Shown here piece by piece: positions 14,134 to 16,552 of a stretch of 49,518 nt of DNA. A program made the translations under genes and the position numbers. Every line of letters starts with the position of its first letter. The stretch's first letter is position 1. Source of the stretch: an uncultured Erysipelotrichaceae bacterium (GTDB lineage Bacteria; Bacillota_I; Bacilli_A; RFN20; CAG-826); assembly GCA_947166565.1 (NCBI GenBank), contig CAMVEL010000012.1:1-49518 (forward strand), written 5' to 3'. Under the pieces are notes generated by a model. It saw nothing but the letters and a program-made list of their open reading frames with translations, was not told the DNA's origin and ran no database searches.

Positions 14134-14472
14134 TTAGCACGTAGGGATATTGGAAAACAGGCGTTCGTAGACTTCCGATTCCTTGAAAACGCTTTTGAGG
14201 GTCTCGATTTCGTAATTCGGGAAGGAGATGGAATATTCCTCCTCCCCATCCTTGAAGACAAACGAGTAGAAACCCCTGACTAAGATGAAGCCGCTCGCGT
14301 TGATCACGGTTTTGTATTCTTTGTATTTCGGGGAATTCGGCTTTTCCGATTTGTTCCAGGAAGTGACGCTGACGCGCTTATTCGTGTACTCCAGGCGTTC
14401 GATTTTCGACAAGGGGAAGGCGAATACCGAGGCTTGGTCGGAGATGCAAAGGTTATCCCCTTCAAGGAAAAG
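14134..14472 (-). pseudogene. 3' part of a membrane protein gene split by IS110 (PH-like domain)
   Basis: Codons running from CTT at 14472 down to the stop at 14134 give LFLEGDNLCISDQASVFAF and then a beta-rich domain ending in ERLFSNIPTC, which looks like a small bacterial PH-like domain. There is no credible start: the first in-frame candidate is TTG at 14412 inside the domain, and TGA follows upstream at 14473-14475. Joined to 16019-16552 it restores one reading frame of about 290 residues, so it is the tail of the interrupted gene. Confidence 0.8.
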
Positions 14473-14735
14473 TCATATTACAGTCCTGTGTAAAATGGCT
14501 CCGTATCCCTCACGGATGAATTTCCTTGCCGTTTGGGGTATAAACCAAACCATGCCGCGCTACCTTTCCATCGAAATTTTACGGCTCGACCGTTCCGCAC
14601 ATGATCAGGCGCGCGGCTTTTCCTTGCACCGTTGATCAGTTGCCTAACGCTCTGACGTTTCATCGAGGCCGTGATGGTACGGAGGGAGAGCCGCGCGTAC
14701 AAAGGACGCGGCAAAGAAGAAAGGAGCATTTTCAC
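14473..14735. ncRNA. Candidate bridge RNA region of the IS110 element
   Basis: IS110 elements of this layout encode a bridge RNA in the 5' non-coding region, with loops that pair with target and donor DNA. Here 14617-14626 (CTTTTCCTTG) is the exact reverse complement of the target flank CAAGGAAAAG at 14463-14472, and 14638-14643 (AGTTGC) equals the opposite flank at 16024-16029. A further hairpin is GTTTGG/CCAAAC in 14531-14551, and GCCGCG/CGCGGC lies near 14691-14714. Exact RNA ends and the coding strand cannot be set by eye. Confidence 0.6.
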
Positions 14736-15938
14736 ATGCCAAGAAAACTTTACGTCGGCATCGACGTCGGCAAATTCAAGCACGAATGCTGCATCGTCGA
14801 TTACGATGGGGTCGTCGTCAGGGACAGCTTCCCCTTCGACAACTCCAAGGAGGGGTTCGAAGCCCTTCTGAAAACGGCCACGGGGATTCCCGGGGCCGAA
14901 GTCGCCGCCATCGGCTTCGAGGCCACCGGCCATTACGGGGAGAACCTCAAATCCTTCCTCGAACGGGCCGGATGCCCCTACGCCGAGCTTAACCCCGCCC
15001 AGACCCATAGTTTCGCCAAAAGCACGAACGGGAACGGGCAGAAGACCGACAAGACGGACGCGAGGGCGATCGCGTCCTTCCTGCTCGCGACGAGGCAAGG
15101 CGCCTCCCCGCGTCAAGATTATGCCAAAAAAATGCTGAAGGTTCTATGCCGGCACAAGTCGTCGCTGCACAAGAGGAAGGCTGCCTGCTGGAATTCCGCC
15201 ATGCGCTGCCTCGACGTTCTTTTCCCGGAATTCGTCGCGTTTTTGGGCAATGGAAACTCCGCCAGGGGGAGGAAGGCCGTCAAAAGGGCATGGGCCAGGT
15301 CGCTGCTTTCCAGGCACCCCTCAGCCAAATCGATCTCCAAGCTGAGCCCCGAGGCGTCGGAAAAGGCGAGGAGGGAATCGATGGGGTCGTTCTCCAAGGT
15401 AAGGTCGGCCGAGCTCAAGGCGCTGGCGAAGGCGAGCATAGGGGTCGATTCCCCGGCGATGGAATCCGTCCTGAAATCGGAACTGAGGCAGATCGAGTGG
15501 CTCGAGTCGGAGATCTCGAGGGTCGACGCGGACATCGAATCCTCCGTCGCCGAATCCGGGTGCAGGCTGCTGACCATACCCGGCATGGGCCCCTTCCTCG
15601 CCGGCGCGATAATGTCCGAGATCGTCGACTTCGGGAGGTTCCCCTCGGCCGATAAGGCCCTTTGCTACGTCGGGGCGTTCCCAATCGTCAGGCAATCGGG
15701 TGAGCACGAATGGGTCGGCTGGATGGCCAAGAAGGGGTCGCCGGCCCTTCGGTACGCCCTGATGCAGGCCGCGATGATGGTCTGCCTCCATTCCGACACG
15801 TTTTCTGATTATTACCAAAAGAAGATAGGCGAGGGGAAGGCCCCCTTGGTCGCTAGAAGCCACGTCGCGAGGAAGTTGCTTAGGGTGATGTGGGCGATGG
15901 AGACCAAGGGAACCGACTTCGATCCGGCCATGGTCTGA
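14736..15938 (+). CDS. IS110-family transposase (DEDD recombinase)
   Basis: 400 residues. The N-terminal RuvC-like DEDD domain has YVGIDVGKFKHECCIVD (first Asp), FEATGHYGENL (Glu) and KTDKTDARAIASF (Asp pair near residue 105). The C-terminal Transposase_20 domain has LLTIPGMGPFLAGAI and CYVGAFPIVRQSG with the expected catalytic serine. It is a strand recombinase guided by bridge RNA. The start at 14736 is chosen over 14601 because AAAGGAG lies 9 bases upstream and the protein begins directly with the RuvC strand. High GC and rare-codon use differ from host genes. Confidence 0.95.
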   Translation: MPRKLYVGIDVGKFKHECCIVDYDGVVVRDSFPFDNSKEGFEALLKTATGIPGAEVAAIGFEATGHYGENLKSFLERAGCPYAELNPAQTHSFAKSTNGNGQKTDKTDARAIASFLLATRQGASPRQDYAKKMLKVLCRHKSSLHKRKAACWNSAMRCLDVLFPEFVAFLGNGNSARGRKAVKRAWARSLLSRHPSAKSISKLSPEASEKARRESMGSFSKVRSAELKALAKASIGVDSPAMESVLKSELRQIEWLESEISRVDADIESSVAESGCRLLTIPGMGPFLAGAIMSEIVDFGRFPSADKALCYVGAFPIVRQSGEHEWVGWMAKKGSPALRYALMQAAMMVCLHSDTFSDYYQKKIGEGKAPLVARSHVARKLLRVMWAMETKGTDFDPAMV

Positions 15939-16018
15939 AATCCCGCCGGGCCGAAAAGCAGGCCCATCGGGTCGTTTTCGGCATGCCTAGACGCACGCCG
16001 CGGGAAAGAGAAATCAAA

Positions 16019-16552
16019 ATAATAGTTGCATGTGCAAACCACGTTGTTCCTATTGACCAAAGCGGATTGGACGAGTTTTTCCTCGCCTTTGGAATTGGTT
16101 TTCACGAATGAGCAAAGCAAGTCGGCTTCCTTTGCGTCCTCCGGAACGTTGAGCTCGTCCTTAATCTCTTTGATGAAGCGGTCCGATTTCTCGAGGAAAT
16201 CCGAAACCTCAGGGTCCTTCTTCTGCTTTCTTAAAAGAACGAGATGGGCCGCGATAAAGCCAATGCCAAGGAGGAAAATGCCCAAGCCTATATAGAAGAT
16301 ATAGCCCCTATTCTTCATCGCCTCGACGAAACCGTCTTTGGCAACGAACATCAAGACACATAGGAAGAGACCGGTAGCGAGTGCAAAGGCCCCAACGGTC
16401 AAAAGCCAACGGGGGTATTGCTTATCAAGGCTTTGCCCTTCCTGGAGGTGGCTTTCCACCTTAGTCTGGGTTTCCTTTGAAATCGCGCGGATTTCATATT
16501 TCAAACAAACGTTTTCCTCTGGGTTGTGGTGCATTCCGAACATGTCTTTCAT
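16019..16552 (-). pseudogene. 5' part of a membrane protein gene split by IS110
   Basis: Begins at ATG 16552 with AAAGGAG 6 bases upstream. About 178 residues remain: an N-terminal cytosolic segment, two membrane helices (about residues 48-70 and 84-106), and a linker up to NRNNVVCTCNYY. Beyond it the frame runs into the insertion sequence and ends at an artificial stop at 15812. With 14134-14472 it forms a protein of about 290 residues: two membrane helices plus a cytosolic PH-like domain. Function is unknown. The split gene is followed (in its own direction) by the isomerase-like gene. Confidence 0.75.

Follow-up and report, generated by a model that had tools for sequence, protein, structure and literature searches.

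The window analysed here, a 49.5-kb stretch of DNA (49,518 nucleotides) from an uncultured Erysipelotrichaceae bacterium, contains an IS110-type element that interrupts a host open reading frame. This raises the question of whether the non-coding region of the element contains guides for the site in which it now lies. The initial annotation of the locus answered that it does: ten bases directly left of the element (14463–14472) are, letter for letter, the exact reverse complement of 14617–14626, and the hexamer AGTTGC at 16024–16029, regarded as right flank, is found again at 14638–14643. The two internal segments were taken to be the guides of a bridge-RNA target loop, from which the target specificity of the element could be read. 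The reading favoured here, with a probability of roughly 0.88, is that the element inserted by means of a sense-strand bridge RNA whose guides are reassigned as described below, at a site that matches them imperfectly.

The element carries an intact DEDD recombinase (PF01548, E 3.5e-32; PF02371, E 6.8e-21), as does IS621, and residues D10, E62, D105, D108 and S321 are all found. These were matched to IS621 by motif and their roles are taken from the accessible text of the IS621 structure paper (PMC11208158). The two recombinases are distantly related (phmmer E 7.6e-16). There are 262 bases of non-coding DNA upstream of the gene (14474 to 14735) versus 91 bases downstream (15939 to 16029). The accessible parts of PMC11187229 and PMC11208160 (section 12) describe a longer non-coding region upstream of the gene for the IS110 group and usually downstream for the IS1111 group. 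The window element has two IS110 domains in a DEDD recombinase, the longer upstream region and a structured RNA with two guide loops, consistent with the IS110 group; the position of the bridge RNA, upstream of the gene and not downstream, does not fit the IS1111 group, whose elements are also marked by sub-terminal inverted repeats of 7-17 bp. The element is an ordinary member of the IS110 family of RNA-guided jumping genes, and its bridge RNA is real. Its own assembly (45 contigs, 91.85% complete) contains this one copy, and no second copy was found there. Searches of viral_contigs with the window protein and with that of L003, a same-family relative of about 52% protein identity, gave no copies, and a search of genome_contigs matched one relative, probably L003 itself, and no further copy. 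Protein matches to the recombinase were found in 81 of the 293 genomes searched, the window's own genome included.

The ends of the element are read from comparison with an uninterrupted allele of the host gene. When the two halves of the gene were searched for in 31 genomes of the genus, each half was found in two, one of them the window's own. The empty allele (L067, genome G025, same genus) forms an open frame of 311 aa and its junction reads CAAGGAAAAG-C-GTGCAAACC. It aligns without a break to the left flank up to 14472, so that the ten-base match does end at the left junction as had been stated, and it has a C where the window has a T. The two flanks of the window share 98.9% identity with this allele over 89 bases and 99.2% over 122 bases, respectively. 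By the junction sequence, the left flank ends at 14472–14473 and the right flank starts at 16032, not at 16024. Since the empty allele resumes at 16032, AGTTGCAT (16024–16031) belongs to the element and not to the flank. AGTTGC is present at both of its positions; the right flank had been placed eight bases off, and the copy at 16024–16029, missing from the empty allele, is part of the element. An empty site guessed from the junctions alone was dropped; the actual G025 allele reads differently.

The left end CATATTACAGTC was aligned by eye with CGTATTAC (L003), CTTATTAA, CTCATTAA and CTGTTTAA of the relatives, and the right end of same-family relatives is formed around AATAGTTG or a similar sequence, like that of the window. 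As in IS621, the left end is longer than the right and the two-base core ends in T. By comparison with relatives, the junction cores read GT on the left and AT on the right, with the T common to both, and the empty allele of the other genome has GC at this point. The donor core is AT, whereas that of IS621 is CT; GT, AT and TT cores also supported recombination by IS621, in which a second base T is almost invariant (PMC11208158, accessible text). The junctions of group D relatives (L005, L008, L010 and L016) have a left core TT and a right core AT. Here, as in the window, the first base is not the same in the two cores, and cores of this kind may therefore be common in the clade. In L016, at about locus 1230-1300, the left-end sequence TTCGTATTATTCAGTTAAGCCTAG is found twice in tandem beside the element. 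The features of the locus are collected in Table 1.

Table 1. Features of the interrupted host gene and the IS110 element, in window coordinates.
Feature	Position	Strand	Basis
3' part of interrupted host ORF	14134..14472	-	Alignment to the empty allele (L067)
Left-junction core dinucleotide GT, read as target-derived	14472..14473	+	Empty allele; left-end alignment over subfamilies
Left end of element (right donor), CATATTACAGTC	14474..14485	+	By-eye alignment to relatives
Bridge RNA, covariance-model match (model bounds, not mapped RNA ends)	14543..14706	+	Model R1
Target-loop closing stem, 5' strand, pairs with 14613-14617	14554..14558	+	Compensatory changes; model alignment
Left target guide position, CCATCGAAATTTT	14568..14580	+	Homologous to flank-matching guides of the relatives as a set
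Target-binding-loop hairpin, ACGG-CTCGA-CCGT	14581..14593	+	Rule-based search; covarying pairs
Right target guide, GCACAT (GCAC plus core)	14597..14602	+	Pairs with ATGTGC at 16030-16035; covariation with right flank
Target-loop closing stem, 3' strand	14613..14617	+	Consensus structure; model alignment
Segment CTTTTCCTTG, left guide of the initial annotation; 14617-14624 form the donor-loop helix 5' strand	14617..14626	+	Fold; helix conservation
Left donor guide, AGTTGC	14638..14643	+	Identical to right end 16024-16029; covaries between subfamilies
Donor-binding-loop hairpin	14646..14660	+	Covarying pairs
Right donor guide, TGAT; complement of AT-CA in the donor, where AT is the core and CA the left end	14672..14675	+	Covariation with left end, 44 elements
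Donor-loop helix, 3' strand	14683..14690	+	Minimum-energy fold; helix conservation
IS110 DEDD recombinase, 400 aa	14736..15938	+	PF01548 and PF02371; matches IS621 8wt6 and ISCro4 9t56
Right end of element (left donor), AATAGTTGC	16021..16029	+	Missing from the empty allele; similar in relatives
Right-junction core dinucleotide AT, read as donor-derived	16030..16031	+	Empty allele; comparison with relatives
5' part of interrupted host ORF	16032..16552	-	Uninterrupted in L067, 311-aa open frame

From 62 relative loci, 50 relative elements were parsed together with the window. Eleven loci were left out by hand, either as fragments or as unreadable (L051, L063 and L065) or with the hairpin missed or mispicked (L043, L052, L058-L062 and L064), and L038 was also left out, there being no hairpin in its available stretch. 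The target-loop hairpin was picked by rule in 48 of 60 scanned elements, wrongly in one (L043). A covariance alignment of 23 hand-chosen relatives out of the 50, with the window excluded, gave a consensus structure in which a closing stem leads into an internal loop that encloses one hairpin, with another hairpin following downstream; compensatory changes are seen in 16 of its 17 pairs. The covariance model built from this alignment (R1) matches the window on the forward strand with 102.3 bits and E 1.5e-23, a rough value from a short calibration, and this is its sole match up to E 1 on either strand of the 49.5 kb. The target-binding loop spans 14554–14617 and the donor-binding loop about 14615–14692; the closing stem of the first and the helix of the second share 14615–14617, so both stems would compete for these three bases in one molecule. 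As in IS621, the left end of the element contains the bridge RNA, ahead of the recombinase gene, and the RNA has two internal loops, each arranged as 5' guide, hairpin and 3' guide. At the Rfam gathering score no family was found at the non-coding region, and the four tRNAs of the window all lie elsewhere. Under laxer settings two weak minus-strand matches appeared in the region, far below the gathering score, and were taken as chance.

Single-sequence folds are better than those of shuffled sequences on both strands (z -3.10 forward, -2.57 reverse), and the choice of strand therefore rests on the covariance model. If the bridge RNA were instead transcribed from the strand opposite to the recombinase gene, the initially reported pair would be canonical in polarity, the reverse-complemented pair having the order and polarity of IS621, and the fold of the minus strand is consistent with such an RNA. 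However, R1 matches the forward strand only, the covarying guides described below were tested and found on that strand, and one member of the pair, AGTTGC, is not flank, which together leave an antisense RNA a probability close to nil. On sequence grounds, the 5' non-coding region encodes a sense-strand bridge RNA with a target-binding loop. The consensus structure and the covariance model bear out the initial annotation in its proposal of such an RNA, though not in the bases that it named as guides.

The guide positions were located by covariation between the RNA and the sequences flanking or terminating each element. Many rows are close copies, so that p values obtained by permutation lack full independence; for the target guides, permutations were additionally made within groups. 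On the donor side, the left guide matches the right end of its own element better than those of others (6.05 vs 4.58, 0/5000 permutations, n=44 with the window), as does the right guide the left end (5.61 vs 4.05, 0/5000, n=44). In the window the left donor guide matches the element's own end over six bases and the right over four, the latter by eye with donor core AT; with core GT the script gave another four-base match (TGAC). The recurrence of AGTTGC is non-random and is explained as this left donor guide: it matches the element's own right end and is not the right target guide for which it had been taken.

On the target side, tests including the window comprised 46 elements for the right guide, 41 for the left guide and for the initially reported pair, and 43 in fixed register. 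The right guide covaries with the right flank, with an own mean of 6.33 vs 3.28 between groups and 6.23 vs 4.90 within groups (0/5000 permutations each, n=46). In fixed register the right guide of the window matches the AT core and four of five further bases, which is equalled by none of 42 other right targets; only four bases plus the core of this match lie outside the element. Subfamilies A, B and C score low in fixed register because their right guide is shifted. The left guide position likewise follows the left flank across the 41 elements (6.02 vs 4.19 between groups, 5.95 vs 5.00 within groups, 0/5000 each), with the relatives' guides matching at varying shifts. This identity holds for the set but fails for the window copy. 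Its longest run against its own left flank is four bases, which is at chance level, 28 of 40 mispairings giving a run at least as long; its best 9-base window scores 6, a value matched or surpassed in 20 of 40, and the best of seven shifts gives 7 of 12 bases. The nearest relative, L003, likewise shows only a four-base run, and its left-guide segment resembles that of the window (CCAT..AAATTTTA) despite different left flanks. In the minimum-energy fold, five of the six bases of 14597–14602 and three of the six of 14638–14643 are unpaired. A search of the element's own genome with the left-guide position, AT and the right target, allowing up to 3 mismatches, gave three sites with 3 mismatches each, and the control gave 0. 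The target specificity can thus be read from the sequence by half only, and from other bases than those first named, namely the right guide.

The segment 14617–14626 itself is part of a conserved helix. In the minimum-energy forward-strand fold of the window 14617–14624 pairs with 14683–14690, and across the relatives the helix at this position scores 8.11 in an element's own sequence vs a permutation mean of 6.99 (0/5000, n=50 with the window), or 8.24 vs 7.05 with one element per group (0/20000, n=25). The best 9-base stem of the window in this test, 14612–14620 with 14687–14695, continues the same helix. The initial annotation had itself proposed that guide bases in closed stems would speak against it, and it is in such a stem, kept in the relatives, that this segment is found.

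That 14617–14626 and 14638–14643 are nevertheless the two target guides is very improbable. The matches are exact over 10 and 6 bases, the longer abuts the left junction, and when the 263-base non-coding region was resampled 200,000 times under a Markov model, the 10-mer arose in either sense in 0.07% of cases; it is the longest own reverse-complement match among the 41 elements, and the left-guide position homologous to those of the relatives fails at this very flank. Over the 41 elements, window included, the pair scores 3.90 vs 3.63 (permutation p 0.032). Against this, the score within groups is 3.76 vs 3.76 (p 0.60), and the homologous segment does not track the left flanks of the 40 relatives when the window is omitted (3.75 vs 3.61 between groups, p 0.20). 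The hexamer lies inside the element, the bases of the 10-mer sit in a helix and the sense of the pair is opposite to the known guide polarity on both sides, so that it does not have target-loop geometry. When the purine-rich left flank of the window was compared with the 40 other non-coding regions, a 10-base reverse-complement match was found in one (L040) and matches of at least 9 bases in four (L040 and the near-identical L053-L055), and three of all 1640 cross comparisons reach 10 bases. The 10-mer is thus unusual, yet it is not compelling, given that the flank is purine-rich, that cross matches occur and that the match came from free inspection of the 49.5-kb window. Most likely, the complementarity is a chance overlap of a purine-rich flank with a pyrimidine-rich helix strand, and the two highlighted matches are a helix strand and a self-recognition (donor) guide, not landing-site guides.

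A further role for the pyrimidine strand was considered, in which 14617–14626, lying 3' of the right target guide, would pair collinearly with that guide on the top strand of the target and so replace the failed left guide. GCAC followed by CUUUUCCUUG would face CAAGGAAAAG-T-GTGC across a bulged closing stem, once the donor-loop helix had opened. In the accessible parts of PMC11208160, PMC11208158 and PMC11187229 no description of such one-strand target reading was found, and we consider it most unlikely.

With the guides as reassigned, insertion via the sense-strand bridge RNA may be pictured as follows. We infer that the RNA, which has the orientation of the recombinase gene, is transcribed and bound. 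Its first internal loop would bind the target, with the left-guide position facing the left target in a poor fit, and its second loop would bind the element's own joined ends, AGTTGC recognizing the right end and TGAT the left. Strand exchange at the two-base core would then join the left target and GT to the left end, and the right end and AT to the right target, the T of the core being shared and the first core base being target-derived at the left junction and donor-derived at the right. In its donor core, in its guides and in its poorly matched left target the window element differs from IS621. Since the left guide is mismatched at its own flank, either an imperfect site was used or something changed after insertion. 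An imperfect, partly guided insertion is probably what occurred. One or two mismatches are typical of the commoner off-targets of reprogrammed IS621, and the CT core was found at 102 of 117 off-target sites (PMC11208160, section 9, accessible text).

The other branch, a variant of the same explanation, is that the guides paired fully at landing and that the left guide or the flank changed later, or that homologous recombination moved the element. The presence of one copy in the assembly, the differing junction cores and a mismatched left guide beside a matching right guide are all consistent with such a change. However, because the flanks are so nearly identical to the empty allele, any change in them looks small, and the left-guide segment resembles that of L003 at about 52% protein identity and so is not obviously drifting. 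A later change is accordingly possible but doubtful, and use of an imperfect site is preferred.

The same-family relatives (L003, subfamilies A, B and C, L004 and others) have the same RNA architecture as the window. Most of the relative copies tested lie at gene starts, whereas the window copy is antisense inside an ORF; the counts come from 41 relatives' junctions tallied by hand and are raw, without a chance-ORF baseline. In subfamilies A, B and C and in L004, 16 elements in all, an ATG is completed by the right core; five of these run off the contig, and in nine of the other 11 the ATG begins an ORF of 100 codons or more. An ATG is likewise read at the right core of L003 and of the window, but no ORF of 40 codons starts from it. 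On the opposite strand, an ATG 5–13 bases left of the core opens at least 98 codons in 19 of the 25 other elements with a usable left flank. The target motif of IS900 from Mycobacterium avium subsp. paratuberculosis, CATGNNNNNNTCTCCTT in the accessible text of PMC8141618, resembles, at the level of the published motif, the CAT to the left and CTCC to the right of many relatives' targets, and gene-start targeting is therefore not claimed as new. The window's own site is without the IS900-type layout. In subfamilies A and B, the left flanks (L017, L019, L033 and L034) contain, in the left target, a TATAAT box separated from the ATG by a few bases, and the right end of the element contains a GATAAT box at a similar distance; insertion could therefore rebuild a promoter beside the start codon.

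For the IS110 family, the locus corrects a plausible misreading: donor sequence at the right end can be mistaken for flank and, as a consequence, a donor guide for a target guide, and distinguishing them requires an empty allele together with relatives. Through the comparison, all four guide positions are mapped by covariation in IS110 elements from a single bacterial family and its relatives. The window copy, which appears to be a natural insertion whose left half is mismatched and whose core is mixed, bears on how much of the guide is needed for IS110 insertion.
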